Of a DNA stretch of 39,992 bases, positions 5,521-28,018 are shown piece by piece. Under the pieces are notes generated by a model. It worked only from the letters and a program-made list of their open reading frames with translations. It made no database searches and had not been told where the DNA came from. Position 1 is the stretch's first letter; each line of letters opens with the position of its first letter. The stretch is taken from the NCBI GenBank assembly GCA_902790525.1, contig CADASI010000009.1, positions 1 through 39,992 on the forward strand, in the 5' to 3' direction. The stretch is from an uncultured Eubacteriales bacterium. Lineage in GTDB: Bacteria; Bacillota; Clostridia; Christensenellales; Aristaeellaceae. Both the position numbers and the translations under genes were made by a program.

Positions 5521-5577
5521 AACGGGTTGCCGCAAAGCATCCAAAAAGATGCTTTGCCGCAACCCGTTATTTTTTGA
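5521..5577 (+). terminator. rho-independent terminator of hisS-aspS
   Basis: A 21-bp stem with one internal mismatch (AACGGGTTGC... paired with ...GCAACCCGTT) and a short AAAA loop, followed by TATTTTTT. It lies 26 nt after the aspS stop. Confidence 0.9.
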
Positions 5578-5658
5578 CATCATTTCTCAATTATGACGTG
5601 TATTTCATAAAATTTACTGTGCGCAGATAAATTTCCGTCGTAAAACGATAAAATTCAC

Positions 5659-5687
5659 TTGACACAGAAATATTTTTGTAATATAAT
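5659..5687 (+). promoter_or_regulatory. consensus sigma-A promoter of the SH3 gene
   Basis: A perfect TTGACA (5659-5664) and a perfect TATAAT (5682-5687) with a 17-bp spacer in an A+T-rich stretch. Strong constitutive expression is expected. Confidence 0.9.
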
Positions 5688-5731
5688 TGTCACACATACA
5701 AAGGGATCAAACCTGAAACAGAGGGATTATC

Positions 5732-6541: not shown

Positions 6542-6563
6542 TCCTCCATATACAGTTATACAT

Positions 6564-6600
6564 AAGACACCCGCGCACTGTACGCGCGGGTGTCTTTTGT
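6564..6600 (+). terminator. terminator between convergent SH3 and LRR genes
   Basis: A 13-bp perfect stem (6564-6576 with 6584-6596) and a 7-nt loop, followed on the plus strand by TTTTGTCTTGT. On the minus strand the downstream bases are not U-rich, so it ends the SH3 transcript better than that of the long minus-strand train. Confidence 0.85.
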
Positions 6601-6604
6601 CTTG

Positions 6605-8545
6605 TCATCGCTCCAGGGACGCCAGGTATTCCGACAGCAGGGACGCCAGGTCCGCCCGACCCTCGGCGGCAAACTTCCGCAGCATGTGGCCCGCCGTCTC
6701 CCCTTTGAGCATGCGGCGCGCCGCCATGAGCCGAAGCAGCGTGTCATTCCGCCACGCCTTCTTCTCCCAGACGGCATATTCCCGCCGGATCAGTTCGACA
6801 TAGTCCTCCTGCCACGGCGCGATCTCCGGCATGCCCACCGACAGCGCGAACAGAAAGCCCTCCGCGGCGCGCCGCCGGTGCCGGTTGGACAGGTCCCCCG
6901 GCCTGCCGAGGTAGATCGGCCTGCCGATTATGGGGATGAAGGCCGGGTTGCCGGTGGCTACGAACGGGTCGCCGTCCGCGTCGCCCCGCGCCGCGGTCTC
7001 CGAAAAGCGCGTCACGCCGCCGTGCACGAACACCAGCTTCACAGGCGCGCCCGCGAAGGCATTGTCGCCGACCTCCGACGCCGTTTCCGGGATGTCGTAT
7101 CGCTCCCGGCTCCTTCCCGGCGGATAGGCGATCAGCCGACGCCCGTCCCTGCTGAGCACGACGCCGTCTTCAACGCTGTACCGACGGGACGCGGGCGATA
7201 CGGCAAACGCCGCCAGCGCACCGCACCCCGTAAAAATGCCGAAATCGGTCACGCTGTCCGTGATCCGCGCGGCGGTCAGCCCCGAACAGCCATTGAACGC
7301 GCCGCGGCCGAGCCTCGTCGCGCTCTCCGGGAGGGTCACCTCCCTCAGCCCTTCGCAGCCGCAGAACGCCTCGGCGTCGATTTGCGTCAGGCGTGCCGGG
7401 AGATCGACACCGCTCAGCCCCGAGCAATAGGCGAACGCCCCGACGCCGATGCGCGTTACTCCCGCCGGAATCCGGGCGCGCCCCAAACTATAACAGAATC
7501 GGAACGCTTCGTCGTCGATCGCCTCGAGATTCTCGGGGAGCGTCGCCGTCTGCAATGCCCAGGCGTTTTCAAACGTCTTTCTTCCAATTCGCGTCACGCG
7601 ACTGGGCAATTTGATTTGCGACAGCTTCCAGCAGTCAATGAAGGCCTTGTCGCCGATGCGCGCGATGCTCTCCGGAAGATCCGCGCTCAGCAGGCTCTTG
7701 CAGCCGAAGAACGCCTCGTCGCCGATCTCCCGAACGCCCGCCTCGACCGTCGCGCGCCTCAGGGCTTCACAGCCATGAAACGCCCCGTCGCCGATCCGCT
7801 TGACGTTGCCGGGGATCGTCACATCCTTAAGCGCGGTGCAGAAGGCGAACGCTCCCGCGCCGATCTCCGTCACGCTCGGGGGGATCGTCACGCCCGTCAG
7901 CGCCCGGCATCCGTAAAACGCCCTGCGCCCGATGGCCGTCACCCCGGGCGGCACGGCGTAGGGACCCTCCCGCCACGGGCAGGCCGCGAGCGTGCGACCG
8001 TCCGCGCTGAATATCACGTTGTCCGCGCACCGGTACGCGCGGCTCCCGGCGGCCACCGCGACGCGCGACAGGCCGCGGCAGCCCGCAAGCGCGGCGTCGC
8101 CCAGGCGCGTCACGCTGGAGGGAATGACGATCTCCTCGAGCGCCGAACAGCCCGCGAAGGCCCGCGCGCCGATGCGGATCACGCCCTCCGCGATATCGAC
8201 GCGCCTGAGCGCCGCGCAGTCGTGAAACGCCTCCTCGCCGATCTCCCGAACGCCCGCCGGTATGGCGATGCGCTCAAGCCCGGCGCACCTCTCGAAAGCG
8301 CGCTTGCCGACGCGCGTCATGCTGCCGGGGATCGAGACGGCTGTCAACGCCTCGCACAGGAAAAAGGCGCCCTCGCCGATCTCCGTCACGCCCTCGGGGA
8401 TCGCGATGCCCGTCAGCTTTTCGCTGCGGACGAACGCGCGCGGGCCGATGGCCGTCACGCCCCGCGGGACGGCGACGTCTCCGCCCTTGCCGGTATACCC
8501 TCTCAAAACACCGTCTTCGATGACAAAACCGGCGTCGCCCGGCAT
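6605..8545 (-). CDS. BspA-type leucine-rich repeat protein, cytoplasmic
   Basis: A 646-residue protein made mostly of about 20 LRR_5 repeats of roughly 23 residues (pattern ..VTxIGxxAFxxCxxLxxVxIP). They run from about residue 15 to 515 with small non-repeat insertions. The C-terminal 110 residues are alpha-helical and charged (ARRMLKGETAGHML). There is no signal peptide or anchor, unlike secreted BspA surface proteins, so it is likely an intracellular binding scaffold. It is the last gene of the minus-strand train, 6 nt after the phosphatase. Its GGGGGAG site lies in the end of that gene, suggesting translational coupling. The ligand is unknown. Confidence 0.85.
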   Translation of the reverse strand: MPGDAGFVIEDGVLRGYTGKGGDVAVPRGVTAIGPRAFVRSEKLTGIAIPEGVTEIGEGAFFLCEALTAVSIPGSMTRVGKRAFERCAGLERIAIPAGVREIGEEAFHDCAALRRVDIAEGVIRIGARAFAGCSALEEIVIPSSVTRLGDAALAGCRGLSRVAVAAGSRAYRCADNVIFSADGRTLAACPWREGPYAVPPGVTAIGRRAFYGCRALTGVTIPPSVTEIGAGAFAFCTALKDVTIPGNVKRIGDGAFHGCEALRRATVEAGVREIGDEAFFGCKSLLSADLPESIARIGDKAFIDCWKLSQIKLPSRVTRIGRKTFENAWALQTATLPENLEAIDDEAFRFCYSLGRARIPAGVTRIGVGAFAYCSGLSGVDLPARLTQIDAEAFCGCEGLREVTLPESATRLGRGAFNGCSGLTAARITDSVTDFGIFTGCGALAAFAVSPASRRYSVEDGVVLSRDGRRLIAYPPGRSRERYDIPETASEVGDNAFAGAPVKLVFVHGGVTRFSETAARGDADGDPFVATGNPAFIPIIGRPIYLGRPGDLSNRHRRRAAEGFLFALSVGMPEIAPWQEDYVELIRREYAVWEKKAWRNDTLLRLMAARRMLKGETAGHMLRKFAAEGRADLASLLSEYLASLER

Positions 8546-8551
8546 GCCGCA

Positions 8552-9289
8552 TCACTCCCCCTGCCCTCTGACGTACCGCGCCTTCCATGCCGCCGCCTCC
8601 CGCGACGTAACGACCCCCTCCGCGGAGTAGAACTCCGTCATGTCCTCCAGCCGCAGGCAGCCGAGCTGGCCGCCGCTGTCGGGGAACACGCACCCGCAGT
8701 CCAGGTCGATCACGCCGCTGCCGTGGGCGATGCGCATCCTCGGCCAGTCGGCGCGCTGCCAGTAGGCCGTCGGCGTGTGTCCGATGAGTATCGTCCAGCC
8801 CGCCAGCTGCTCCGGCCTTTGAAGCCCCATCCTGTGCCACACGGCGAACTCCGTCTCGTCCCGCCAGCGCCCGGGCGCGTACAATTCCACCGGCGCGGCG
8901 TGCACCAGGCGGAAAGCCCGCTCCCCCACGCGGATCTCCGTCTGCACCGGCAGCGATTCCACGTAGCTGAGCAGCTCCTCCCGCGCCCCCGCCCCGAGCG
9001 CGTTGAAGCGCCGGTAGGTCTCCTCGCAGCCGTTGCGCCACCACTGCATCAGCGCCCAGCCGTCGCCGGGGTGCCGCAGCGCGTCGATCATCATGAGCTC
9101 GTGATTGCCCAGCAGCAGCGTGGCGTTCGGCATGCTTCGTATGCGCCGGAGCAGCTCGATGCCGTCCGGCCCGCGGTCGACGACGTCGCCGATGATGTAC
9201 AGATGATCCTCCGCCTTCATATCGATCATGGCGAGGACGCCGTCAAACGCGGCGCTCTCGCCATGGATATCGGACAAAGCGTAATGCAT
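8552..9289 (-). CDS. PPP-type metallophosphatase (Ser/Thr protein phosphatase family)
   Basis: A 245-residue calcineurin-like phosphoesterase with all metal-site motifs: D7-x-H9 (SDIHG), GDVVDRG at 34-40, GNHE at 61-64, H130 (VHAAP) and H171 (GHTPT). This is the bacterial PrpE/PP1-like layout, which removes phosphate from protein Ser/Thr/Tyr or splits dinucleoside polyphosphates. The Hanks-type kinase 7 kb upstream in the same gene train suggests it reverses that kinase's marks (inference). The ATG is preceded by GGAGGTG. It sits 16 nt after the dual-specificity-type phosphatase gene, so two unrelated phosphatases are adjacent. Confidence 0.88.
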   Translation of the reverse strand: MHYALSDIHGESAAFDGVLAMIDMKAEDHLYIIGDVVDRGPDGIELLRRIRSMPNATLLLGNHELMMIDALRHPGDGWALMQWWRNGCEETYRRFNALGAGAREELLSYVESLPVQTEIRVGERAFRLVHAAPVELYAPGRWRDETEFAVWHRMGLQRPEQLAGWTILIGHTPTAYWQRADWPRMRIAHGSGVIDLDCGCVFPDSGGQLGCLRLEDMTEFYSAEGVVTSREAAAWKARYVRGQGE

Positions 9290-9305
9290 CCCACACCTCC
9301 ATCTG

Positions 9306-9740
9306 TCACGGACGGATGCCCAGCGCGCGGCAGGCCAGCGCGTGGACCCGGGGATTCGGCCTGAGCGGTCCGCAGGCGCTCAGCGCGTCCCCGCCGCCGC
9401 GGTACGCCCGGACGGCCAGGGCGACTGCCGCCGAGCGCGACACGCCCTCCCAGCAGTGGACGATCAGCCGCTGACAGTCCAGCGCGTCGACGAACGCCCT
9501 GAGGCCGTCGAAGTCCGCCGGCTCCGGCAGCGGGCGTCCGTAGGGGATGCCCTCGTCGTCATAGGCCGCCGTCAGGTCGTTGAAGCGCAGCCGCAGTATG
9601 GACGTCACGTTTTCATTCGCGGGAAAGGCCACTTCCGGCTCGTCCGTCGAGGTGATCGAGATCACCGCCGTCGGGGCCGTCGCCTCCGCGGCGCGCAGAA
9701 GCGCCGCGTCCCGGCCGCATACCTCGATGATCATGCCCAT
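9306..9740 (-). CDS. dual-specificity/tyrosine phosphatase-like protein
   Basis: A 144-residue cytoplasmic protein with the cysteine phosphatase P-loop VHCWEGVSRSAA. C96-x5-R102 are the nucleophile and phosphate-binding arginine, followed by the usual S/T and a helix. A D55/D61 region could supply the general acid. The length matches minimal DSP domains. Its start overlaps the TROVE gene: the Rsr stop TGA (9731-9733) overlaps the second in-frame ATG (9732-9734) as ATGA, and an earlier ATG sits at 9738-9740. Translation is therefore very likely coupled to Rsr. Substrate options are phosphoprotein or RNA/nucleotide phosphate; the coupling to an RNA-binding protein makes the latter worth considering. 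Confidence 0.82.
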   Translation of the reverse strand: MGMIIEVCGRDAALLRAAEATAPTAVISITSTDEPEVAFPANENVTSILRLRFNDLTAAYDDEGIPYGRPLPEPADFDGLRAFVDALDCQRLIVHCWEGVSRSAAVALAVRAYRGGGDALSACGPLRPNPRVHALACRALGIRP

Positions 9741-11170
9741 TCATATTCGGCGATGCGCCGCTCCAGGCTTCCCCCGCCCTGCTCCGCCAGCAGGATAAAG
9801 TCGAACACCTTCTCGCTCCAGCCCGCGATGATGTTGGTGCGCGGCCCGGCGAACTGCTGCGTGCCGTAGCCCTGCAGATCGACGGCGTGCACCCAGATGT
9901 CGTTGCCGGATTGCGCGCGGTATTCGTCCGCCAGGGCCTGCACGGGCTGGCGATAGAGGGAATTTGACCGGTTGCACTCGTTGTCGCTGATGATGATGAC
10001 CCGGTCCGCCCTGATCCCCTCGTCAATCATCACCTCGAAGGGCAGGCCGATCCTGGTGCCCCCGCCCGCGCTGGCGTAGCGCATGCAGGTTTCGAGTATG
10101 GCGGCGTCGCGGCTGACCGGGCATTTCCGGATCTCCATGTCGAAGGTATAGAATAGGCTGTCCTCGCAGATGCGGTTGGCGATCAGGCCCAGCATCATGC
10201 CCACCTCGCAGCAGCGCACGGTGGATTTCGCGCTGAGCGTCGAGGACATGGAGCCGGAGGTGTCCACGGCGATGACCGTCGTGCCGGGCAGCGTCGGCAG
10301 GTTGTCCACCGCGTAGCGCGCCGCGGTTTCCAGCGCGCCCATCGCCCGGCTTCCGGCGATGCCGCCGATCTCCCGGTAGGCCGACAGGAACCGGAAGGGA
10401 AGCTGTCTGGAGCGCCTGACGGCCTCCGGGTCGGCGATGGTGCTCCACACCTTGTTGATGTTGCGCGGCTGGGCCTGCAGTATGTTGCGCAGGTTGCGCA
10501 GAAGCGCCATGTAGCCCACCTTGCCGCTGTCGATCAGCTTTTCCCAGGTCTTGGCGTTGTTGCCGTCTCTGGAGAGCTGCGTCTCCCACGTCTCGGGCGT
10601 CTCCAGCCGGTTCTCCAGCACCCGCTTCCACAGCGCTGCCTGGGCCTCGTCCTTCGGCGCGGGGTGGCACAGCATCACGATGTCCTTCATGCTGACGGCC
10701 TTGCCCGCGCCCCTGTACTTGGCGAGGGTGTACTCGTCAAACCGCGCGAAGGCGTCGCAGACGCCCTTGCGCAGCGCGTTGGGGATGGGCTTGCCGAACG
10801 TGGCGAGGTAGAACGCCATCAGCTCCGTCACGTCGTCGCCGCGCCGCACGATGCCGTTGACGGTCCTGCGCACGTAGGGCTTGCCCTCCCGCTCGTGCGC
10901 CAGGTACGCGGTCAGCACGTGCGCCACCGAGCGCATGTTGAACTCGCGGCGCGCGAACACCGCCAGCCGGGACGCGAAGTCCGGGTCCTGCCGGATGACC
11001 CGCTGGATGGTCAGCGCCATCTCGGCGCTGTTGTCGCCGTAGAACTTCTTTTCGTTGAAAAAGGAGGTCAGCACCTGCGTGACCAGCCTGGCCCTGTCCT
11101 CCATGGCGTAGGCCGGCATGCCCTCGCGGTTGGTCGTCATTTCCGTCGGTCGGTTGTTGAACTTGCTCAT
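9731..11170 (-). CDS. rsr: Ro60 ortholog (TROVE plus vWA domains), Rsr
   Basis: A 479-residue RNA-binding ring protein. The TROVE HEAT-like repeat domain covers about residues 15-290. The vWA domain follows, with a complete MIDAS: D303-x-S305-x-S307 (DTSGSMSS), T372 and D396. Bacterial Ro60 proteins bind Y RNAs and misfolded or degrading RNAs, and act with exonucleases such as PNPase. An open frame extends further upstream, but the true start is the ATG at 11170, preceded by AAGGAGGTG. The frame above it runs through the Y RNA. The 3' end of the yrlA RNA lies about 30 nt upstream, matching the known rsr-Y RNA linkage. It is followed by an overlapping phosphatase gene. Confidence 0.95.
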   Translation of the reverse strand: MSKFNNRPTEMTTNREGMPAYAMEDRARLVTQVLTSFFNEKKFYGDNSAEMALTIQRVIRQDPDFASRLAVFARREFNMRSVAHVLTAYLAHEREGKPYVRRTVNGIVRRGDDVTELMAFYLATFGKPIPNALRKGVCDAFARFDEYTLAKYRGAGKAVSMKDIVMLCHPAPKDEAQAALWKRVLENRLETPETWETQLSRDGNNAKTWEKLIDSGKVGYMALLRNLRNILQAQPRNINKVWSTIADPEAVRRSRQLPFRFLSAYREIGGIAGSRAMGALETAARYAVDNLPTLPGTTVIAVDTSGSMSSTLSAKSTVRCCEVGMMLGLIANRICEDSLFYTFDMEIRKCPVSRDAAILETCMRYASAGGGTRIGLPFEVMIDEGIRADRVIIISDNECNRSNSLYRQPVQALADEYRAQSGNDIWVHAVDLQGYGTQQFAGPRTNIIAGWSEKVFDFILLAEQGGGSLERRIAEYEWA

Positions 11171-11199
11171 GACGCGCACCTCCTTTTTAAAACACGTAC

Positions 11200-11360
11200 A
11201 AAAAAAGAGACGGATAAATTCGACTGCGGTATCATTCTGGGTGATGTCCTGACCGCTGGACGAACGCCCTTGCGAGCGTGCGGGATTCGAACCCGCGCCT
11301 TCACCATGGTAAACGAAGTAACCGCAACCCACAATGCCGTCTCCGCCGGTCGCCCGGCGC
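11200..11360 (-). ncRNA. yrlA: YrlA-type Y RNA (tRNA-mimicking Ro60 partner RNA)
   Basis: An RNA of about 160 nt, folded by hand. The basal stem pairs 11343-11337 with 11213-11207 (GAGACGG/CCGUCUC), then U7. An internal loop has GUCGAA on the 3' strand, and a second stem pairs 11325-11321 with 11230-11226 (GCGGU/ACCGC). Above it is a complete permuted tRNA. The anticodon-like stem is 11305-11301/11244-11240 (5 bp) and the variable region AGGC. The T arm is GCGGG-UUCGAAU-CCCGC (11296-11280). The acceptor is 11279-11274/11269-11264 (6 bp, one G-U) closed by a GCAA tetraloop. UC stands at positions 8-9. The D arm is GUCC-AGCGGUCA-GGAC (11261-11246), and one base stands at position 26. A GC hairpin with a GCGA loop (11359-11344) precedes the basal stem. 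YrlA RNAs are known to dock on Rsr, which is encoded immediately downstream. Confidence 0.93.
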
Positions 11361-11366
11361 AACCTC

Positions 11367-11395
11367 ATTATAACACGGCCCTAACGCATTGTCAA
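11367..11395 (-). promoter_or_regulatory. yrlA promoter
   Basis: On the minus strand, TTGACA (11390-11395) and TATAAT (11367-11372) are separated by 17 bp. Both hexamers are perfect consensus. The predicted start is at the G near 11360, just before the 5' GC hairpin of the RNA. The -35 box lies inside a 13-bp palindrome, GCATTGTCAATGC (11386-11398). This gives the Y RNA and rsr half of the train its own promoter. Confidence 0.9.
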
Positions 11396-11436
11396 TGCCG
11401 TTTTCTAGGCTTTGCCGCACGCGCGACGAATACGAT

Positions 11437-12078
11437 CTATGTTAATCTGAGCCACAGCGCGGGGCGGACGCAGTTTCCGTTGCTGCGCACGTCCTGGCCT
11501 GCGTAGCGTATGTCGCCGCCCAGATCGACGCCCATGGCGTACTTGTTGGTGCAGCCGGGCGTTCGGAGCCACCACCAGCAGCAGTCGCTGAACGACTCGT
11601 GGTACGGCCCCCAGGAATTGGCGCCCCGGTACCGGGCGTAATCGGTGGGACAGCATTGGCGCGCCGTGCGGGAGTCAAAGTACCGCTCCGCCTCCGACGC
11701 GCTGAGCAGAAAGATGCGGTCCTGCGTGTCCGTGCCGGGGTCCGCATCGTATTTCGGATTCCGGTCCGCCCGGACCGCAGTGACCAGTATGCGCCTGCGC
11801 TCCGCCGGTCGAAACGCCGCGTCCAGGAAGCGTCCGTTCAGAAACAGCGTCCGCAGGGTGCAGCGCTCCCAGGTCACGCGCCTGCTGCTCTTGTGGTACC
11901 ACTTGACGTTGATCGCCTGTTTTGTGATCAGCAGCGCGCGCCCGTCGGCGACGTCCAGTACCTGCCACAGAAGCGGCCGGACGTCCTTTGGCCGGTTGCC
12001 GTCGCCCTGCCGATACCGGCCGAAGGGCACGGTGTCGCCCACACGCAACGACGCCCCCGCGCGAATAACATCCGACAC
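11437..12078 (-). CDS. DUF6273 domain protein
   Basis: A 213-residue protein recognised by the DUF6273 pattern: an early GRYRQ...WQVLDV strand pair, CTLRTLFLNGRFLDAAF, RIFLLSASEAERYF, WWWLRTPG, and a GNCVRPALWLRL end. The domain is common in gut and rumen Clostridia; its function is unknown. There is no signal peptide. The start is a GTG at 12078, with GGGGG 7 nt upstream. It closes the first part of the train, with the yrlA promoter 41 nt beyond its stop and no terminator between. A second DUF6273 gene lies at 24986-25522, so the domain occurs twice in the same cluster. Confidence 0.82.
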   Translation of the reverse strand: MSDVIRAGASLRVGDTVPFGRYRQGDGNRPKDVRPLLWQVLDVADGRALLITKQAINVKWYHKSSRRVTWERCTLRTLFLNGRFLDAAFRPAERRRILVTAVRADRNPKYDADPGTDTQDRIFLLSASEAERYFDSRTARQCCPTDYARYRGANSWGPYHESFSDCCWWWLRTPGCTNKYAMGVDLGGDIRYAGQDVRSNGNCVRPALWLRLT

Positions 12079-12101
12079 TGCGCATCCCCCTCTCTCAACA
12101 T

Positions 12102-13376
12102 CTAACCCGGCCTGAGCTTTTCCGCCTGCTTGTAATACTGCTTTGCGCGCTTGGCGCTGCCCGCCTCCGCCAGGAGGTCCCCCGTCTCCCTGAGCGCCCT
12201 GGCGTAGCGCTCCCGCGCGGAGGAGGCCGCAATGTCCCTGGGGTCCTTTTCCTCATAAGCGACGCGTGCCCATTCGAGCTTCTTCTCCTGCCACTTCAGC
12301 GCCAGCCTGAAATCCCGGCGGACGTATTCGCCCGAGGCGTAGATGTGGACGATCTCGTCGCAGGCGTACAGGTGCCCCCGCCCGGCGGCGTCGGCCAGCA
12401 TCCTAAGCGCCGCGGCATTGTCCTCGTCCACGTCGATGCCGTACCAGTAGGCCATCCACAAAAAGTAGCTGTGCTGACGACTGCGCGGGGAGACCGACCA
12501 CGCAAGCCGCGCGACTTCCTCCGGCGCAAGTCCGATCTCCCGCCCGCCGGCCTCCATGATCTCCGTTAGCGCGATCTCAAAGCTCCTGTAGTAGGACTTC
12601 ATCTTTTCGAGCCGGTCGGCGATGCGCTTCGTGAGGGGGTCCTCCACGGACTCCCTGAGCACGATCCCGCTCCCGTACAGATGGTGCCGCTGGTACTTCC
12701 GGAATATGTAGGCGTCGAATATCGCCAGCACCTTGTCCTCCAGGTCCTCCCGCTCCGGGACGCCTTCTGCCGGGCGCAGGGCTTTGCGCAGCAGCTCGTC
12801 CGGGTCGTCGTCCCACTTGCGCTCCGTCCGGTCCGAGGCCCATTTTGCCAGGTCGTCGTCGGTAAAGGACGGCAGCTTCTCAAGCCACTCCCTCGCCCTG
12901 CGGGCAAAGCGGCTTTTTTCCGCGATCAGCTCGCGGCACAGGTCCTCGATGTCCTCCCGGGACACTTCACTCTTCAATCCGCAGTCATAGGTCCGATAGC
13001 TGTATGCGTCGCAGGCGTCCGGCGGCCAGCGATACCCCGTCAGGCGGCAGAAGGCGAACCGGCGCATCATGGCGTCGGGGGCCTCGAGCGCCGCCTTTAG
13101 CGTCCAGTAGTCGTCCTCGCGCATCACCTGCTCCCGAAGCAGCATGTACGGCGCGTAGTCCGCGTCGTTCTCGTCGTCGATGTTCACCGGCAGCGCGGGA
13201 ACCTCCTGCATGCGGTACTTCATCATCAGGCGCTTTTGTTGAAGCGCCGTGCAGTGGTTGATTATGTGCCGTATGAGCAGGCGGTCCTTCTCGGCGTCGA
13301 GCCTGAAATCCACCGTCTGGAAGGGCCCGGATCGCCACCGGCCCCAGTTTTCCTTCCGAAAGATGTCGATGCCCAT
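12102..13376 (-). CDS. uncharacterised protein with Sel1/TPR-like C-terminus
   Basis: A 424-residue soluble protein that I do not recognise as a whole. The first 230 residues are helical and rich in charged and aromatic residues. From about residue 285 there are Sel1-like helical pairs (YFLWMAYWYGIDVDEDNAAALRML, then YACDEIVHIYASGEYVRRDFRLALKWQ). A final TPR-like helix follows (ERYARALRETGDLLAEAG). The same YGIDV.....A..LL grammar occurs in the two TIR proteins upstream, so it may act as an adaptor. The ATG has GGAGGG 5 nt upstream, which overlaps the TAG stop of the preceding gene (10-nt gap). Confidence 0.7.
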   Translation of the reverse strand: MGIDIFRKENWGRWRSGPFQTVDFRLDAEKDRLLIRHIINHCTALQQKRLMMKYRMQEVPALPVNIDDENDADYAPYMLLREQVMREDDYWTLKAALEAPDAMMRRFAFCRLTGYRWPPDACDAYSYRTYDCGLKSEVSREDIEDLCRELIAEKSRFARRAREWLEKLPSFTDDDLAKWASDRTERKWDDDPDELLRKALRPAEGVPEREDLEDKVLAIFDAYIFRKYQRHHLYGSGIVLRESVEDPLTKRIADRLEKMKSYYRSFEIALTEIMEAGGREIGLAPEEVARLAWSVSPRSRQHSYFLWMAYWYGIDVDEDNAAALRMLADAAGRGHLYACDEIVHIYASGEYVRRDFRLALKWQEKKLEWARVAYEEKDPRDIAASSARERYARALRETGDLLAEAGSAKRAKQYYKQAEKLRPG

Positions 13377-13386
13377 ATCAGCCCTC

Positions 13387-14541
13387 CTACCACCCGTCGA
13401 TGTTGCCCAGGCAGTGGCCTTTTCGATCGACGACCCGGACGATATCGTCGATGGCCCGCTGGCACAGCTCCGCGTTCGCCGCCTCCACCATGATGCGCAC
13501 GCTGGGCAGCAGCCCGGAGAAGCGCAGCGCGATGCGGGACCGTTCGCCCAGCGATTCGCCGACGCGCCGAAGCGCCCCCCGGATGTCCTCGTCGGCCTTG
13601 AATGCGTCGATGCTGTCGATCTGAATGTGCCGGGTCAGCTGGACGCAGTGCCAGCAGGTCCTGGCGACGTGCCGGTGGCAGAACAGCCGCACGTCGTCCT
13701 CCTGCGCCTTGACGGAGAGCGCCGAAGCCTCCCAGCGCTGCCGGAGATGGTCGACGGGCTCCCGCACGCCGCGCAGAAATAGCACGCAGGCCGCCACATA
13801 GCCCACGCGCCCGCAGTCCTCGCCGCAGTACAGCGCCACGCGCTTCCTGTCCTCCAGCAGGCCGTCCACCTCCACCGCCAGCCGCTCCAGTATGAAGAAC
13901 GGGAGCACGCCGTAGGGCGGTATGGGATAGTAGAGCAGCTCTCCCCGGAAATCCTCCCAGACGCTGCCGGGCAGGCTGTCCAGCGCCACGATGACGTCGG
14001 GTCTCGCCTGCATGAGGTCGTAAAGCTCAAGACCGCGCGCTGCGATGAGGCCGGGGTGGATCTGTATGACCCTGTCCTCCGCCTCCACTTCCAGCTCCGA
14101 CGCCCTCGGGGCCAGCCCGTCCAGCAGCCTGCGGATGGCCGGCAGCTCCGCGATGCGCACCCCGGACGGCGCGCTGTAGCGTATGATGTGAAGCACAGCG
14201 CCGTCCACCTCGTACTGGGCGACGCCGTCCGACTTCGACCTGAGCAGCGCGATCACGCACGCGACGCCCTCGCGCCGGAGCAGTTCGACCGCCTCGCTCC
14301 GCACGGCCTCGCCATAGTCCGCCTCGTCCATCAGCGATATGCAGACGCACGGGCCGTCCGATCTCAGCGCCTCCCACTCAAAGCCGGTCTGACAGCCCTT
14401 GTAGCTGTTGAGCGCTATGCCCCGCTGCTGGCACGCGTCGCTCAGGAATCCGATCTGCCGGAGCAGGCTGAGCCAGTCCGACTCCATCGCCCTCGGCGCC
14501 GCCACATAGACGTTCAGAACGCTCCGATCCGGCTCCCGCAC
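13387..14541 (-). CDS. fusion of CX5R phosphatase-like loop and phosphohexomutase-like C-terminal domain
   Basis: A 384-residue protein with an unusual layout. Residues 8-120 look like an alpha/beta domain (LNVYVAAPRAME start, alternating strands and helices), possibly TIR-like. Residues 233-258 contain VALYCGEDCGRVGYVAACVLFLRG, which matches the dual-specificity phosphatase P-loop with C239-x5-R245 and the following helix; the usual preceding His is Tyr. Residues 315-372 resemble the last domain of phosphoglucosamine/phosphomannomutases (IALRFSGLLPSVRIMVEA; the canonical SGTEP is SGLLP). In mutases this domain grips the sugar phosphate. The start is a GTG at 14541 with AGGAGGTG 7 nt upstream. 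Phosphatase activity or phospho-ligand binding is inferred. Confidence 0.62.
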   Translation of the reverse strand: MREPDRSVLNVYVAAPRAMESDWLSLLRQIGFLSDACQQRGIALNSYKGCQTGFEWEALRSDGPCVCISLMDEADYGEAVRSEAVELLRREGVACVIALLRSKSDGVAQYEVDGAVLHIIRYSAPSGVRIAELPAIRRLLDGLAPRASELEVEAEDRVIQIHPGLIAARGLELYDLMQARPDVIVALDSLPGSVWEDFRGELLYYPIPPYGVLPFFILERLAVEVDGLLEDRKRVALYCGEDCGRVGYVAACVLFLRGVREPVDHLRQRWEASALSVKAQEDDVRLFCHRHVARTCWHCVQLTRHIQIDSIDAFKADEDIRGALRRVGESLGERSRIALRFSGLLPSVRIMVEAANAELCQRAIDDIVRVVDRKGHCLGNIDGW

Positions 14542-14571
14542 GGTATCACCTCCTCAAGAAGGCTTCGATCC

Positions 14572-16398: not shown

Positions 16399-16416
16399 TC
16401 GGATCCCTCCCTTTCG

Positions 16417-19464: not shown

Positions 19465-19505
19465 GGAATCACTCCGTCCTCCGTCGACCCGTTCCCGGGC
19501 ATCAC

Positions 19506-20237: not shown

Positions 20238-20260
20238 GCAGAATACACTCCCTTCCGTAT

Positions 20261-22324: not shown

Positions 22325-22355
22325 AAGCGCTCCCTCGCCTTCTCCCAGGGCGTTT

Positions 22356-22676
22356 TCAGGACATCAGATTGACCTTGCACAGCTTCAGCTTCCGGATGAT
22401 CTCCTTGAGCTCCGGGTCCTCCCCGTTCAGGCGCAGATGCGCCTCCAGCAGCTTGATGACCTTGGTCATGTCGTCGATCGTAAGGGCGCGCTTCTTCACG
22501 CCCTTTGCGATGCTGACATCGTCAAACGCATCCATGCCGCTCTGCGGCATGCCGGCCCAGCGCCGCGTCTCGGCCGCCCAGCCCTTCTCGAAAAAGGACG
22601 CCAGCATCCGTATCTCATCGTCCGTCAAAATGGGAAGCGTATCCGGTTTCTTAAACAGATCAGAGAAAAAACCCAT
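22356..22676 (-). CDS. small helical protein of unknown function
   Basis: A 106-residue cytoplasmic protein that I do not recognise. It begins GFFSDLFKKP, a short amphipathic hydrophobic/basic segment, followed by predicted helices (DDEIRMLASFFEKGW, DDMTKVIKLLEAHLRLNG, LKEIIRKLKL). ATG 22676 is chosen over the upstream TTG because AAGGAGG lies 7 nt before it. It sits between the two TIR genes (gaps 44 and 31 nt) and resembles in style, not sequence, the 100-residue protein at 25555. The position suggests a partner of the TIR proteins. Confidence 0.72.
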   Translation of the reverse strand: MGFFSDLFKKPDTLPILTDDEIRMLASFFEKGWAAETRRWAGMPQSGMDAFDDVSIAKGVKKRALTIDDMTKVIKLLEAHLRLNGEDPELKEIIRKLKLCKVNLMS

Positions 22677-22720
22677 CAAAAGCCCTCCTTGTCCTTCGTC
22701 GCGTCGTCATTCTGCGAAGG

Positions 22721-24952
22721 TCAGTCGCGTCCTGTCAGCTTTTCCAGCGCGCGCCTGGCCCTGTCGGCGTATCTTTCGTACTCCGGGTGGTTGCGGCAAA
22801 TCTCCTCCCACAGCCTCAGCGTGCGCTCCATCATGCCGGCGTCGCGGGTATACTCCGCGAACAGGCAGAGCGTCGTGGCCAGCTCGTGGCTGGCGGTGTG
22901 CGACGGAAACTCCGTAAGCAGCGCCTCGCGCAGGACGACGGCGCGCTCGAGGCAGCTTATCGCCTCATCCCGCCGGTCGAGGCCGTCCAGGGACTTCGCC
23001 AGCTTCTCAAGCCCGGCGGCCAGGTTTTTGCGGTACTGCGCGGAGCCGGTCTCGGCGGCGTTCTTCTCAAAGATCGCCACGGCCTCCTGCTGCAGCGCCG
23101 CCGCCTCCCGGCACGCTCCCCGGGCGCGCTGCACCTCCCCCAGCTTGACGAGGCTCACGGCGCAGTCGTCCCGGGCCTGCCAGGTCCTGAGCTCCTCCGA
23201 GAGCACCTTATCCAGCGCGAGCGCCGCGCGGTAATCCGCCGCCGCGCCGTCGTAATCCATGCGGGACCGCTTGATGTTGCCCAGCTTGGTGCGTATGGCG
23301 GACAGGTCCCGGCGCGCGCGGGGGCTGTCGTCCGCTTCGGCCAGCGCCTCGCGCAGCGAAAGCGCCTCACGGTAGAGTGCCTCCGCCCGGTCCAGGTCCT
23401 TGCGGTGCCGATACACGTCGCCCAGCCGCTCCTGGCTGACGGACAGGTCGCGCCGGGCGCGGGCGGTGCCCATCTCCCGGGCCAGCCGGGCGTTGATGTC
23501 CAGCGCGCGGCGGTAGTATTCCTCCGCCCTGTCGCGCTCCCCCCGCGCACGAAAGAGCCCGCCCAGGCGGTTGCAGATCACTGCGGTGTCCCGCTGCACC
23601 TCGCGCGCGCCCACCTCGTCAGTCAGCGTCCCGGCCACCGTGAGCGCCAGCTCCGCGGAGGCGACCGCGTCCGACAGTTTGCCCGCCTCACGAAGCAGGT
23701 CGGACAGGCCCATCAGCGCGCGGAAGTACCGCGTGCCAAAGCCCAGGTGCTCGTCCGGGGAGCGGCCCTTTTCGTACTCCGCCCGGTACTGGTCGCACAG
23801 CGTCTTCTGCCACCCGACAGCCCTGTCCATGTCCCGCGCCACGCCGTCGCCGTTTATGTACATGTCCACCAGCTTTTCCGTGGCGTCGAAGCAGGGCTCC
23901 GGGTCCGTCGCGGCGGATTCCAGAAGCGCTATGGCGCGGTCCCGGTCCACCTCCACGTCGATGCCGCACAGGTACGCCAGGCCGATGAAGAAGCGGTGCC
24001 GCGCGGAGCCGTCGTTCTCCTTTTTGGAGATGCGCCGAAGCGCCTCGAGCAGCGCGGCGTTCATCTCCCGGGGCTGATGCTCGTCCTGTATGGGGGGTAT
24101 GTCGCGGTAGACCGTCTCCATCTTCAGCCGCTCGGTGCGCGCGTCGCCGCGCTCCGTCTCGTAGAGCTCCACGGGCACGATCTCCAGATCGCCCTTCTTC
24201 TGCCGCCGGCTTCGCGCCATCGGGTATTCCTCCCTGAGCACGTAGTTCTTCGGCTCCAGCAGGTTGGGCGTCACCGCCAGCGCGAACAGGCTGCTCTTCT
24301 CGAAGGCGGCCCTGATGGCCTCGTCGTACCGCTCGCCGGGCACGAGAAACTCGTCGTACCATATGGCGATGTCCCTGAACTGCCGGTTTTCGTGGATCAG
24401 GTGCATCAGCCGCTGGGCGTGGCGGCGGTCCTTCTTGCGATAGCTCAAAAACACATAGGCGTCGAAGGCGTCGCGCACCCGCTCCGCCAGCTCGTCGCCC
24501 ACCAGCACCGACTTCAAGTAGGTGTCCAGCACCTCGTCGTAGGGCGTGGCGGTGGAATCGCTGACGCAGCGGTTCACCACCTGGAGCTTGGTGTCGGTGA
24601 CGCGGTTGAACTCCCGGGACAGCCCGCTTTCAAGCAAAATCGGCAGCACGGGAATGTGCTGCCTCAGGGCATATTTCAGCGCCACGTCCCTGGCGCGACA
24701 GGCCGTGTACAGGAATTTGGAGGTCACGGCCAGCACCATAAGCTGCATCTCGTCCAGGCAGACCCCGAGCTCCTGGGGATCGTAGGGCGCGTTCATCTCC
24801 GCGTCGTGCCAGACGGCGCAGTTGGCATGCCGGAGCAGGTCTTCCGAAATCAGCGGGATCGCCCTTTCCCGATCCTCCGGATGACAGGTCAGGTACACCC
24901 GGGGCTTTCCCCTGACGTCGCTCATGCCACGGGTGATGTATTCCAGCTTCAA
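22721..24952 (-). CDS. tandem-TIR, TPR protein (soluble)
   Basis: A 743-residue protein with the same plan as the gene at 20261 but no membrane helix. Residues 17-108 are a degenerate first TIR (PRVYLTCHPEDRER, IPVLPILLE). Residues 165-262 are a canonical TIR with VFLSYRKKD (167-175), IWYDEFLVPG (197-206) and NYVLREEY, with E241/E242 at the catalytic position. A Sel1 stretch is at about 310-400. At least six TPRs follow to the end (EEYYRRALDINARL, EALYREALSLREAL, AADYRAALALDKVL). The start is probably TTG at 24952, with AAAGGA 11 nt upstream; ATG at 24925 would shorten it by 9 residues with a poorer site. Likely an effector or sensor acting with its membrane-bound relative. Confidence 0.9.
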   Translation of the reverse strand: MKLEYITRGMSDVRGKPRVYLTCHPEDRERAIPLISEDLLRHANCAVWHDAEMNAPYDPQELGVCLDEMQLMVLAVTSKFLYTACRARDVALKYALRQHIPVLPILLESGLSREFNRVTDTKLQVVNRCVSDSTATPYDEVLDTYLKSVLVGDELAERVRDAFDAYVFLSYRKKDRRHAQRLMHLIHENRQFRDIAIWYDEFLVPGERYDEAIRAAFEKSSLFALAVTPNLLEPKNYVLREEYPMARSRRQKKGDLEIVPVELYETERGDARTERLKMETVYRDIPPIQDEHQPREMNAALLEALRRISKKENDGSARHRFFIGLAYLCGIDVEVDRDRAIALLESAATDPEPCFDATEKLVDMYINGDGVARDMDRAVGWQKTLCDQYRAEYEKGRSPDEHLGFGTRYFRALMGLSDLLREAGKLSDAVASAELALTVAGTLTDEVGAREVQRDTAVICNRLGGLFRARGERDRAEEYYRRALDINARLAREMGTARARRDLSVSQERLGDVYRHRKDLDRAEALYREALSLREALAEADDSPRARRDLSAIRTKLGNIKRSRMDYDGAAADYRAALALDKVLSEELRTWQARDDCAVSLVKLGEVQRARGACREAAALQQEAVAIFEKNAAETGSAQYRKNLAAGLEKLAKSLDGLDRRDEAISCLERAVVLREALLTEFPSHTASHELATTLCLFAEYTRDAGMMERTLRLWEEICRNHPEYERYADRARRALEKLTGRD

Positions 24953-24985
24953 AATTCCCGCCGTCCTTTCTCTTCTCTCCTTTGA

Positions 24986-25522
24986 TCACAGCCTGTTCAG
25001 ATCCACCCACATCGCGGGCCGCACCGCAAAGGCCTCGTCGGCCACGTTGCCCTGGGCATTGATCTTCCCGTCCGTCAGCACCGTCATCGACGCCGGCCAT
25101 GGGGCTGAGCGCGTATCCCTCAGCCACCACATCCTGCCGGTGGTCTTTCGATCGGCGTCGTCCCTGAAGTACTTCTCCGCCTCCTCTTTACTCAGGAGAA
25201 ACAGCCTGTCCTGCGTGGCAGGACGCCCCTTGTCGTGAATGGCGGTGGTCAGTATGGCCGCCTTTTCCTTCGGTGAAAAGGCGTTGTTATAGAGCGTGCC
25301 GTTGAGATATGCCCGCAGCGTGCAGTTTTCCCATTCCAGACTGCCCCTGCTTTCATACAGCTCGGTGCACTTTTCATGGAGCTTTGCGTTCGTCACGGGC
25401 TCCCTGGAAATCAACAGCGCCGTGTTTTTCGCGCCGTCAATGTCAAGGATGCGCCACTTCCGCCCGCCGATCGCCATGGTTCCGCCCACCTTGCGGCCAA
25501 ACAGTCCTCCCAGGATTTCCAT
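24986..25522 (-). CDS. DUF6273 domain protein
   Basis: A 178-residue protein of the same family as the gene at 11437. Shared marks are WRILDID, CTLRAYLNGTLYNNAF, RLFLLSKEEAEKYF, MWWLRDTR and AVRPAMWVDL. The N-terminus MEILGGLFGRKVGG is short and hydrophobic/basic, as in the two small proteins of the cluster. I chose ATG 25522 (GGGAG 9-10 nt upstream) over the GTG two codons earlier, which has almost no spacing. Function is unknown; the gaps of 32-33 nt place it firmly in the train. Confidence 0.8.
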   Translation of the reverse strand: MEILGGLFGRKVGGTMAIGGRKWRILDIDGAKNTALLISREPVTNAKLHEKCTELYESRGSLEWENCTLRAYLNGTLYNNAFSPKEKAAILTTAIHDKGRPATQDRLFLLSKEEAEKYFRDDADRKTTGRMWWLRDTRSAPWPASMTVLTDGKINAQGNVADEAFAVRPAMWVDLNRL

Positions 25523-25554
25523 GTTCACAGTCTCCCTTCCCGCGCCCTGTCAGC

Positions 25555-25857
25555 TTACAGCAGCTTGTTCAGTTTCCTGGCGATCGCCTGCGCCTGGCGC
25601 GCGTTGTCCGGATAACCGGACATGACATCCGCCATGGTATTGCAGATGTTGATCAGCCCCTGTATGACGCCGGGAATGAGGGGCTCGTCCGCCTGGATGA
25701 CCGGCAGGATGCTGCGGCAGGCGTCACGGATGCCCTCCGTGCCCCCGATGGCCGTCATGCTCGTGAGATAGGCCACCAAATCGTTTCGCTCCTGCTTCGT
25801 GAGCACCTCGGTCAGCCTTCTGCCCTCTGCCTTCTTCTTTTTCCCGATTCCAAACAT
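25555..25857 (-). CDS. small helical protein of unknown function
   Basis: A 100-residue protein beginning MFGIGKKKKAEGRR, a short hydrophobic patch plus a lysine cluster, then helices (LTKQERNDLVAYLTSM, IPGVIQGLINICNTMADVM, ARQAQAIARKLNKLL). No family recognised. The ATG at 25857 is preceded by GGGAGGT, which lies within the end of the HD-domain gene; one base separates that gene's TGA from this ATG. The two are therefore almost certainly translated together. Longer open frame upstream of 25857 is overlap with the HD gene, not coding. Confidence 0.75.
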   Translation of the reverse strand: MFGIGKKKKAEGRRLTEVLTKQERNDLVAYLTSMTAIGGTEGIRDACRSILPVIQADEPLIPGVIQGLINICNTMADVMSGYPDNARQAQAIARKLNKLL

Positions 25858-25858
25858 G

Positions 25859-27898
25859 TCATTGTACCTCCCTGTTCTCCAGACAGTAGATTCGGGTGCC
25901 GTCGTACTTCTTGAGCAGCTGCAGCATGCGGTTGAAGGGCTTCCAGTCCTTGTCCTGATCCGCCTCATCCAGCTGGTTGTAGTGCTCGGCGACCTCCGCC
26001 TCGGTGGGGTTGCCGTCCATGGTCAGCTTGTGGCGGCGCAGCTGCTCCCGCAGCGCGCTCCGCGCCTTCTTCTGCTCCGCCTCGGGGAGATCCAGCGGCA
26101 GCTTCTCGTACTCGTCGCCGTAGCGCCAGCCCATGGCGATGTGCTCGCGCACCCAGCGCCCGTGCTCCATCGGCGCGAATATAGCCGCCTGGTCCGGGGT
26201 GAAGCGCGTGACCATCTCGTAGTCCACCGGCTTGTCGGTGTAGAAGCAGCGTATCGCGTCCAGGTAGCGGGCAAAGTGCCTGGCACGGTTGAGCGTCGAG
26301 AGCTGGTACTCCAGCGAATGGGACTCGAACTTCTTCTCCATCTGCTCAACCGTGGCCTCCGGCGGAAGGCTGCGCCCGTGTATGGCGACGGCGAAATCGT
26401 AGAAGTGCAAAAAGTTGCTGCTGGACAGGTAGGTGTGCTTCATACTGCGGTCCACCCTGCCGGTGTGCGCCTTGACGGTCAGCGGGATCGACGCGGTGTC
26501 CACGATCTTCTCGATGTCGGTGCGGAAGCGCTGCCCCTTCTCCGCCATGTCGCTGTACGCCTTGAGGCGCGGGGGCTTGCCCTCCCTGCCGCCTTCTTCC
26601 CAGGCCGCGTAGGCCGCGCGCCAGGCGTCGATCTTCTCCTGCTCCGCCCGGTCGTAGCAGTAATCCGCGCGGATGGCCCCGTCGGCGAAGTCGAACTTCG
26701 CGGCCATGGGGTGCAGCTCGGTGCGGGAGTTGCGCCCGTAGGCGGTGCGGTCCCAGCACTGCAATTCGTCGCAGATCATCAGAAGGTAGGCCAGCGGATG
26801 CTCGCCCATGCGAAGCGGCGGCTTCGCCTTGCTGGCGTCCTTGTAGAACGAAATGGCAAACTTGAACAGGCTGTTGTGCAGCAGTATCGCCGAGAGGGCG
26901 TCCACGTGCATGGGCGTGAGCGCCTCCGGCCCGCAGGCTTCCCTCAACTCGCGAAACAGCCGCGCGGCGCTGAAAAAGGCGTGGTCCATGAAGCAGCCGA
27001 AGCGCTCGGGGGATACCGGCTTTAAATCGATCACGTCGCGCATGTACGCCTCGGTAAAGCCGTAGGCCTCCCCCAGCTTGCGCCAGATGTCCCACGCCAG
27101 CAGCGCGACGACAGTGTCAAACCGCCTGCCGTAGAGCGCCTCAAAGCGCACGATCGCCGGTTCGTCCAGCGCCGTCAGGGATTCCACGTTGCGGTAGGCC
27201 AAAAACAGGCTGTCCCCGCTCCGGCTCTGGTTGTTGACCTCGAAGTAGGAAAGCACCTGCTCGAAGGGCAGCTCGAAGGGATAGCCGATGTCGTGAAACA
27301 GCGACGTCAGCCCCCAGAACTCCAAAAACCGGTTGGCCGCGTCGGCGCTGTCCGGTTCAAAGCCGTAATATGTCTCGAAGGCGCGCCGGTACGGGACGTT
27401 GCTCTCGTAGATCGCCAGGCCCAGCGCGAACACGTACACCGAGTGGGAGTAGTGGTCCCGGTGCTTCATCAGAAGCGAGCTGCCGTTGGACTCGTACTCC
27501 GAGAGCAGCTCCACCATCTTCTTGGAGCGCCCGTACCGCCCGAGGAACATGTTGATGTAGCAGTAGTACACCGGATAGGCGTCCTCGGCGGTGCCGGAGT
27601 CGATGAAATCCCCCAGCGTCTTTTCCAGGCACAGCCGGTCGAGGTCCATCTGCATGTTGTAGGGGATCTGGTGCGCCGACAGGCTGACGCCTTCAAAGAC
27701 GCCCGTCTCCGCCTCGCGGCGCGCGATTTCGCCGTCGTGCCGCAGGCCCTCGCACCGCTCGCGCAGAAAGCGCAGCGCCGCCGACTTTAAGTCGCTCGTC
27801 TTTTCGCCCTCGCTGGCCGGCGGCTGCATCGGCCCGAGGTCCTCGCCGAAGCGCGCTTTGAGGCTCTGCCTCATGGTTTCCAACGCCGTATACGCCAT
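25859..27898 (-). CDS. HD-domain hydrolase with RyR-like C-terminal domain
   Basis: A 679-residue soluble protein, first gene of the train. Residues about 140-385 contain HD-type metal ligands: H149/H152 in the helix HRDHYSHSVYVFALG, H202-D203 (LFHDIGYP), H306 or H341, and D377 (ICDEL). HD enzymes cleave phosphoester bonds in nucleotides or cyclic nucleotides. Residues about 576-670 resemble a RyR domain (MEHGRWVREHIAMGWRYGDE, then LDEADQDKDWKPFNRML); in prokaryotes this domain is thought to bind nucleotide-type ligands. So a nucleotide-sensing or nucleotide-degrading role is plausible. The ATG at 27898 has AAAGGA 8 nt upstream; ATG 27907 is too close to that site. The RyR match was made by eye. 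Confidence 0.78.
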   Translation of the reverse strand: MAYTALETMRQSLKARFGEDLGPMQPPASEGEKTSDLKSAALRFLRERCEGLRHDGEIARREAETGVFEGVSLSAHQIPYNMQMDLDRLCLEKTLGDFIDSGTAEDAYPVYYCYINMFLGRYGRSKKMVELLSEYESNGSSLLMKHRDHYSHSVYVFALGLAIYESNVPYRRAFETYYGFEPDSADAANRFLEFWGLTSLFHDIGYPFELPFEQVLSYFEVNNQSRSGDSLFLAYRNVESLTALDEPAIVRFEALYGRRFDTVVALLAWDIWRKLGEAYGFTEAYMRDVIDLKPVSPERFGCFMDHAFFSAARLFRELREACGPEALTPMHVDALSAILLHNSLFKFAISFYKDASKAKPPLRMGEHPLAYLLMICDELQCWDRTAYGRNSRTELHPMAAKFDFADGAIRADYCYDRAEQEKIDAWRAAYAAWEEGGREGKPPRLKAYSDMAEKGQRFRTDIEKIVDTASIPLTVKAHTGRVDRSMKHTYLSSSNFLHFYDFAVAIHGRSLPPEATVEQMEKKFESHSLEYQLSTLNRARHFARYLDAIRCFYTDKPVDYEMVTRFTPDQAAIFAPMEHGRWVREHIAMGWRYGDEYEKLPLDLPEAEQKKARSALREQLRRHKLTMDGNPTEAEVAEHYNQLDEADQDKDWKPFNRMLQLLKKYDGTRIYCLENREVQ

Positions 27899-27989
27899 GG
27901 TATCCATCCTTTCATGACCATGCCCTGTCCGGGCCAAAAGACCGCAAACCGGGCTGCGTCTGACGATTAAAGATATTATTACGGTATGA

Positions 27990-28018
27990 ATTATAACATG
28001 AAATCCATGTTATGTAAA
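27990..28018 (-). promoter_or_regulatory. promoter and inverted-repeat operator of the TIR/kinase/Ro60 gene train
   Basis: On the minus strand, TTTACA (28013-28018) and TATAAT (27990-27995) are 17 bp apart. A perfect inverted repeat, ATAACATG-5 nt-CATGTTAT (27993-28013), fills the spacer and overlaps the -10 box and the edge of the -35. A dimeric regulator bound there would block RNA polymerase. No regulator gene lies in the train itself. The gap 27899-28079 holds only this and the terminator of the next operon. Confidence 0.8.

Follow-up and report, generated by a model that had tools for sequence, protein, structure and literature searches.

A train of 16 coding genes and one YrlA RNA runs over about 21 kb on the minus strand (27907..6605) of contig CADASI010000009.1 from an uncultured Eubacteriales bacterium, and is headed by a gene (25859..27907) for a putative HD metal phosphohydrolase with a C-terminal RyR/R12-like domain, here called HD-RyR. 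The contig was analysed whole (39,992 bases, G000:C9; hereafter the window) and belongs to an incomplete genome of 3.75 Mb in 199 contigs. We propose that the train constitutes a modular TIR signalling system of island size, in which HD-RyR would act as the receiver of a TIR-made signal, a reading suggested by sequence comparison to which we give a probability of about one half. The best-supported core is smaller than the train and consists of HD-RyR with a TIR protein and/or a SLOG-SLATT-like protein; kinases, phosphatases, a secreted-looking protein, LRR and DUF6273 proteins and Ro60-YrlA are lineage-specific additions. The train is not a chance grouping, because its genes recur together in other species. 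The tight one-strand packing reported in the original prediction, which was made from the letters of the window and a list of its open reading frames, is confirmed by the coordinates, and the accompanying interpretation as an undescribed system of defence or RNA-damage response is partly supported.

Conservation and changing partners of HD-RyR

In a species-genome collection 386 stretches encode a relative of HD-RyR. The best 80 of these 386 (58-87% identical) were examined together with one contig from a viral collection (L116), giving 81 loci; two of the 81 have no gene called downstream, and counts for the gene directly after HD-RyR (+1) refer to 79 loci. Surveyed loci carry L numbers, G000 is the window genome and the other G numbers are close genomes. 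All titles of the 80 stretches denote uncultured or metagenome-assembled bacteria, with names such as Clostridia/Clostridiales, Lachnospiraceae, Oscillospiraceae/Ruminococcaceae, Erysipelotrichaceae, Christensenella and similar, and many give goat, sheep or buffalo gut as the site. The +1 gene lies on the same strand as HD-RyR in 70 of the 79 loci; in 53 it is both on this strand and no more than 60 nt away. It encodes a TIR-TM (TM, transmembrane) protein in 16 loci, a tandem TIR protein in 14, a SLOG-SLATT-like protein in 16 and something else in the other 33, TIR or SLOG-SLATT together making up 46/79. Within three same-strand genes on either side, a TIR is present in 45/81 loci (nine of them with SLOG) and SLOG alone in 11/81, which gives 56/81 for the two together; the SLOG-SLATT-like protein occurs within three genes in 20/81. 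This gene-neighbourhood comparison, a check proposed with the original prediction, establishes a conserved association, and the homologues were found to travel together in other species.

A tree of 79 HD-RyR proteins was built by a quick method with SH-aLRT support only. The four +1 labels need 24 changes on this tree, compared with a mean of 40 when shuffled; its starred (well-supported) branches require that SLOG changed at least 7 times, and TIR-TM and tandem TIR at least 6 times each. The labels are clustered, as inheritance predicts, yet they change several times, and these changes of partner are likewise established. In loci such as L038 and L041, labelled as other, a TIR gene follows after one or two extra genes, and some label changes are therefore insertions and not losses of the partner. 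The contig classed as viral, L116, carries one HD-RyR with L113 and L108 as tree neighbours, and may be host DNA or a prophage.

The close-genome set comprised 60 genomes, of which 28 represent the genus (the window genome and 27 others). HD-RyR was found in 12 of the 60, namely the window's own, 8 of the 27 other genus members, G030, G041 and G044; the G041 protein is distant (31%) and that of G010 is in two pieces at a contig end. A TIR-TPR gene stands directly after HD-RyR in G019, G023, G005 and G030, and two small genes later in G014. Of the 12 close loci, window included, seven have a TIR_2 match no more than 5 kb from HD-RyR, against a background of about 0.005 TIR matches per 10 kb (74 in 60 genomes), a slight overestimate since four matches of the window genome were counted twice. 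In a sample that covered the class evenly with 391 genomes, the close HD-RyR family was found in the window genome only and seven others hold weaker or partial relatives (best 9e-61); HD-RyR is therefore patchy and not a class-wide gene.

Domains and conserved residues

The predicted structure of HD-RyR (pLDDT 88.5, pTM 0.92) has RyR3 Repeat12 as its top Foldseek match (prob 0.97, E 0.15). A profile comparison with RyR3 Repeat12 chains (E 0.0024) places H582 and W585 on the RyR H-x-x-W, and both residues are invariant in an alignment of 48 family members. Conservation is nearly as high for D654 (47/48, one gap) and H642 (44/48), which were paired by eye only with D117 and H100 of the phage protein RyDEP. 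The Pfam RyR model matches 19 of the 48 relatives at E 0.01, the lowest value being 2e-5, and a predicted RyR domain is recognisable in the family. Equally invariant (48/48) are the putative HD ligands H152, H205, D206, H309, H344 and D380. The metal ligands of the HD superfamily follow the pattern H...HD...H...H...D, and by analogy these six residues would be the HD metal ligands of HD-RyR. The conservation of these residues is established.

The two TIR proteins of the train both contain TIR_2 by Pfam (1e-12 and 3e-9), and both carry Sel1. The first (22721..24952) consists of a TIR-like half, a TIR domain, Sel1 and TPR; the second (20261..22324) has the TIR-like, TIR and Sel1 parts and a hydrophobic C-terminal segment. 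A 66% identical homologue of the second adjoins HD-RyR in L068, where a 70% homologue of the following LRR_5 protein stands beside the TIR protein. Glutamate E242 of the first protein is kept in all 17 tandem TIR members aligned and would by analogy be catalytic, and a ThsB-type PADLOC model matches this protein at 2.8e-6. Its structural model has two alpha/beta units and, after them, an array of helical repeats. In the 50 Foldseek matches listed for this model the structures are helical repeats, of the TPR type and others, and these leave the TIR halves unconfirmed. In the TIR-TM-LRR partner of the relatives both TIR_2 and E84 are present in 18/18 aligned members. A separate TIR-like gene upstream of TIR-TM-LRR resembles that neighbour strongly in profile comparison (prob 98.8), has no glutamate at the three positions checked, and shows a weak similarity to the tandem TIR protein's N-terminal half (prob 25). 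The comparison of the two TIR domains is moderate (prob 73).

The SLOG-SLATT-like protein of the relatives matches DUF4231, which we take to be a member of the SLATT group, in 12 of 19 sequences and a SLOG family in 5 of 19 (E 0.01). PADLOC gave a single weak match among the 19, to ShosA.

These parts have counterparts in known systems. SLATT is predicted to form a nucleotide-signal-responsive pore (PMC7159879). Phage proteins of the RyDEP family bind 2'/3' cyclic ADP-ribose (2'/3'cADPR), with a stable complex in six of the eight homologues tested; cleavage by RyDEP takes place in a pocket like that of RyR Repeat12, with H75, W78, H100 and D117 (PMC13232231, a 2026 preprint). TIR enzymes make such signals, and the SLOG domain of ThsA binds 3'cADPR (PMC10022894). 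HD-RyR resembles RyDEP and RyR Repeat12 (PF02026) in a conserved H-x-x-W like that of their ADPR pocket, and an Asp was paired with theirs by eye only; it differs from them in that it is bacterial, that its one RyR-like region is joined to an HD-type hydrolase, and that it is encoded beside TIR genes. Like Thoeris, in which a ThsB TIR protein is paired with a ThsA SLOG effector, the train encodes in one gene run NADase-type TIR domains and a protein predicted to receive an ADPR-type signal, and in relatives the likeness extends to a SLOG-SLATT-like protein near HD-RyR, while the train itself is without a SLOG match. It differs from Thoeris in that the constant partner is HD-RyR and not SIR2-SLOG, and in that the TIRs are in tandem with Sel1/TPR or in TIR-TM-LRR pairs. 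The vWA/GTPase-centred conflict systems described by Aravind's group (PMC7159879) similarly draw on TIR, SLATT and nucleotide-acting domains as interchangeable parts, whereas here HD-RyR is the constant head gene.

The Ro60-YrlA block and the predicted transcription units

The distal part of the train contains rsr (9731..11170), encoding bacterial Ro60 with TROVE (9.5e-38) and vWA_Ro60 (7e-11), directly preceded by a YrlA-type Y RNA (11205..11341; Rfam match 11220-11328). The RNA scores 29.8 bits against a gathering score of 69, and the YrlA of L122 (42.3 bits) is likewise below it. Sixteen of the 33 predicted pairs keep pairing with a change on both sides in at least one sequence among eight long homologous copies. 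Two or three tandem YrlA copies precede Rsr in the relatives. In G010 and G016 (L120 3092-3169 and L121 3104-3180) there are copies of 77-78 nt that retain the Y RNA stem and are without the tRNA-like part; standing in tandem with full-length YrlA, they are predicted to be minimal Y RNAs. The succession of YrlA-type RNAs and a TROVE + vWA protein is that of the known Rsr-YrlA ribonucleoprotein (RNP). The train departs from it in the link to HD-RyR and TIR genes, in the two short copies, and in that the train proteins scanned include no RNA-repair or exonuclease family. TEP1 of the vault also brings a TROVE domain and a TIR-like NADase into one RNP, although as a single polypeptide with a NACHT ATPase, where separate genes are found here (PMC13174449).

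The train is well bounded. A terminator-like hairpin of 16 pairs (28069-28032) ends the upstream gene just before a promoter-like site (27990..28018, TTTACA-17-TATAAT, 11/12 consensus) that precedes HD-RyR, and a 13-pair hairpin (6564..6596, no strand assigned) lies past the last gene. Intergenic gaps are 1-41 nt, or 44 nt before the 107-aa gene if that gene starts at 22676, and the Rsr and DSPc genes overlap by 10 nt (4 nt if DSPc starts at 9734). The YrlA element is separated by 95 nt from the stop of the preceding DUF6273 gene and by 34 nt from the ATG of Rsr. A perfect promoter (11367..11395, TTGACA-17-TATAAT, 12/12) stands before yrlA. Transcription units were inferred from consensus promoter matches at a threshold of 9/12, at which shuffles expect 1.3-1.5 sites per stretch and 1 and 2 were found. 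The train is best read as two predicted units, HD-RyR to DUF6273 and yrlA to LRR5, because the perfect promoter precedes yrlA besides the strong one before the first gene; the promoter marks YrlA-Rsr-DSPc-MPP-LRR5 (MPP, metallophosphoesterase) as a candidate transcription unit of its own. A strict one-operon reading was rejected on account of this sigma-70-type site. The single gene train of the original prediction therefore holds in so far as its genes recur together, and is predicted to be in part divided into separately regulated units.

These observations bring forward the alternative that two unrelated units lie side by side, each with its own promoter and function: an HD-RyR/TIR/kinase operon, and an RNA-handling YrlA-Rsr operon with phosphatases and LRR. 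Besides the internal promoter, sites like it precede the first YrlA copy in G027 and G018, although the same pattern was not found in the G015, G010 and G016 loci. Full-length Rsr is present in six genomes (the window genome, G010, G015, G016, G018 and G027), fragmentary or distant matches in G015 and G023 being left out of the count. In G015 Rsr sits with a block of secreted protein, PTP and Sel1 genes and heads the series Rsr-DSPc-(gap)-MPP-LRR5, and HD-RyR was not found in that genome; in G018 it is on a contig of 3.4 kb. Co-occurrence of Rsr and HD-RyR over the 27 genus genomes is not significant (3/5/2/17, p 0.14, uncorrected for kinship), and in the class sample, where TROVE is found in 8 of the 391 genomes, window genome included, no genome besides the window's own holds both. 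Set against this, four of the six genomes with full-length Rsr have it in the train of HD-RyR, at about 15 kb in the window, 5 kb in G027, 0.6 kb in G010 and 0.5 kb in G016, and in the last two HD-RyR is followed immediately by Rsr and its Y RNAs, although TROVE is so rare in the class. The gene for the secreted-looking protein also links both parts, in that 6 of the 7 genomes with it among the 27 genus genomes hold HD-RyR (6/2/1/18, p 6e-4, uncorrected for kinship) while in G015 it lies with PTP-Sel1 before Rsr. We regard two unrelated units as possible, with somewhat less than even chances.

Ro60-YrlA is most consistent with a genus-level add-on that is accessory to the HD-RyR system, because of its own promoter and its narrower spread. 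Ro60 was considered as the core of the system and rejected, since the Rsr profile found only the G016 and G027 loci and one weak frame among the 81 surveyed loci, and since class-wide HD-RyR and TROVE are common to the window genome only. The weak frame is in L082 (2471-4833), where HD-RyR is followed by a SLATT-like protein without the SLOG half and then by a partial frame that is weakly Rsr-like (3e-6, no Pfam match).

Proposed mechanism and alternative readings

A RyR-hydrolase encoded beside TIR and SLOG-SLATT genes is most simply read as the receiver of a TIR-made signal. A trigger would be perceived through the attached sensors and regulators, that is, the kinase, phosphatases, LRR, DUF6273 and TPR/Sel1 parts. 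The TIR domains would then turn NAD+ into an ADP-ribose-type signal, as their family and conserved glutamate suggest, and the RyR domain of HD-RyR may bind it; its conserved H-x-x-W pocket and the phage proteins described with such a domain point to this. Binding would control the HD hydrolase, and in relatives the SLOG-SLATT-like membrane protein is predicted to be a second receiver. YrlA-Rsr, under a promoter of its own, would be an accessory through which RNA damage or the handling of RNA may be linked to the response. The chemistry is thus a prediction, and so is any effect on phage.

Several observations weigh against this reading. No Foldseek match of the HD-RyR model reached E 0.001, and those for the HD domain are weak (exopolyphosphatase, prob 0.18; PDE2A, prob 0.16). 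Pfam matches HD weakly in just 2 of the 48 members, and its RyR match in the window protein (0.025) is below the cut-off; of the HD hydrolase with RyR domain in the original prediction, the invariant residues and the RyR matches of 19 relatives speak for it and these values do not. The N-terminal TIR-like half has the glutamate in 13 of 17 members and A in the window copy (22721..24952). The first SLOG-SLATT member is below curated cut-offs for both domains, and Pfam found no SLOG or SLOG-SLATT gene among the train proteins. TIR and SLOG are both missing at +1 in 33 of 79 loci and both missing within three genes in 25 of 81, and TIR_2 is absent within 5 kb in 5 of the 12 close loci (G010, G016, G017, G027 and G041). 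The survey, being the best 80 of 386 stretches, is itself a limit. Finally, at most 7 of 114 sampled wider neighbours match PADLOC defence models at 1e-10.

This last count must be read as only a rough sign against a plain defence reading. A script drew 120 wider-neighbour proteins, 114 of which were scanned with no control set; six were omitted by hand, two in L037, one in L073 and one in L092 that resemble train genes, and two in L105 for no good reason. The search of a defence catalogue, as the original prediction had advised, gave no fitting model for HD-RyR: PADLOC did not match the window protein and matched one of the 48 members weakly (Csx19). A Pfam scan of the 16 train proteins found no CD-NTase, the signal synthase of CBASS. 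The proposed system is defence-like, and the anti-phage role first put forward is plausible by family logic. The combination of genes was proposed to be undescribed, and the open literature searched gave no match to it and no description of HD-RyR with TIR or of bacterial Ro60-YrlA with TIR; an earlier mention in Burroughs et al. 2015 is possible.

If HD-RyR is a receiver, it is slightly more likely to be an effector that destroys nucleotides upon signal binding than an off-switch that destroys the signal. The latter role is taken further in the alternative that HD-RyR is a safety valve, which would capture and remove the TIR signal, set a threshold and end the response, much as phage RyDEP acts against the host, with killing left to the TIR or SLOG-SLATT proteins. 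Cleavage of 2'/3'cADPR by RyDEP and its sequestration by other phage RyR proteins agree with such a role, as does the constancy of HD-RyR (by survey design) while TIR and SLOG partners vary around it. However, the sensor-hydrolase fusions of known nucleotide systems are mostly effectors, and RyDEP cleaves with its own RyR-like pocket and needs no HD domain. A safety valve is rather doubtful. It is unlikely that the train is a stress or surface-signalling island, unrelated to phage, in which NAD chemistry serves regulation. Such an island would fit the recurrence in relatives' trains of the secreted-looking protein, of paralogues of the kinase and of phosphatases of three kinds, the ClpB-like ATPase and Hsp70 added in G015 and the low count of defence neighbours, but partners such as TIR and SLOG-SLATT are characteristic of conflict systems, and patchy presence (8/27 other genus genomes) with changing partners fits conflict better than housekeeping.

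Other genes of the train and its flanks

HD-RyR is followed by a gene for a 100-aa protein without a Pfam family (25555..25857), which has an 85% identical homologue at the same place in G014, and by the first of two DUF6273 genes (24986..25528 and 11437..12078), which between them have Pfam matches of 2e-24 and 5e-19. The DUF6273 family has been reported in print as C-type-lectin-like and as a target of diversity-generating retroelements. Such a reading was dropped here, as no second copy of the 3' end of 11437-12078 was found in the incomplete genome; three reverse transcriptase matches in this genome lie on G000:C2, C113 and C135. Between the two TIR genes is a 107-aa protein with no family above the Pfam cut-off (22356..22679). 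Downstream of them are an LRR_5 protein whose N-terminal part has hydrophobic segments (19506..20237) and a Ser/Thr kinase with TPR and a long C-terminal part (16417..19464; Pkinase 1.8e-28), in which HQD replaces HRD and DFG is present. The last gene encodes a BspA-type LRR_5 protein (6605..8545), the two LRR_5 matches of the train being 5e-101 and 4e-20.

The 608-aa protein with a signal-peptide-like N-terminus (14572..16398) has neither Pfam nor PDB sequence matches, and it is an impression only that it may be a secreted carbohydrate-active enzyme. Next to it is a PTP/DSP-like phosphatase with C-x5-R (13387..14541; weak Pfam matches, 0.0015 and 0.04); it is an unusual fusion, in that its end is similar to the phosphoglucomutase C-terminal domain (Pfam 2.6e-6). 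The gene at 12102..13376 looks like Sel1/TPR but has no Sel1 match in Pfam. Sel1/TPR scaffolds are consequently present in the TIR proteins as first described and are not confirmed at this gene, whereas the TIR domains, the LRR proteins and the protein of the RNP were all recovered by Pfam. Two further phosphatases follow Rsr, a DSPc-like protein with C-x5-R (9306..9740; weak match, 9e-4) and a calcineurin-like metallophosphoesterase (8552..9289; Metallophos 7e-11).

In the relatives, kinases are added in G005, G014, G019 and G023. The secreted-looking protein is followed by PTP, directly or past one 121-aa gene, in G005, G014, G015, G027 (where its gene is split in two) and another contig of G019, and a Sel1-like gene comes after PTP in G005, G014, G015 and this second G019 contig, in the last as a fragment behind a kinase at the contig end. 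G005 also encodes a protein of 2,111 aa in which three kinase domains follow one another (L018, 9254-15589), with a 2,128-aa relative on a short G019 contig. In L146 (G015:C118) another stress-like module (3067-16518) lies on one strand upstream of the secreted-protein/PTP/Sel1/Rsr block, in the place where other genomes carry HD-RyR/TIR; its parts are kinase-Sel1-LRR, a ClpB-like AAA protein, another kinase-like protein, Hsp70 and a large protein with a peptidoglycan-binding domain.

Beyond the head of the train, the rest of the genus matches the flank gene 28080-29198 only in part. On the other side, aspS (3707-5494) is near full length in most of the 28 genus genomes. In G005 (L156, G005:C51, 3887-12074) the order hisS-aspS-SH3-LRR5-DSPc runs to the contig end, placing the end of a train at the same site as in the window, on the aspS side. 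No Rsr was found in the G005 assembly, in which the contig break falls where Rsr would lie.

Implications

The most far-reaching version of the proposal is a long shot. HD-RyR would be the host's receiver of a cyclic ADP-ribose signal made by TIR domains. It would be the counterpart, on the side of immunity, of the phage evasion proteins with RyR domains and possibly a cousin of the animal RyR Repeat12 pocket, with the Ro60-YrlA RNP as one input in this genus that ties RNA damage sensing to NAD-based immunity. The 2026 preprint treats phage RyR proteins that cleave or sequester cADPR, and the present family directs attention to a host-side role of bacterial RyR domains. If HD-RyR senses or destroys a TIR signal, TIR immunity gains a type of receiver, which would also bear on whether cADPR acts at the Repeat12 pocket of animal RyR. 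Within the genus, the recurrent Ro60-YrlA neighbour offers a testable link between this RNP and NAD signalling.

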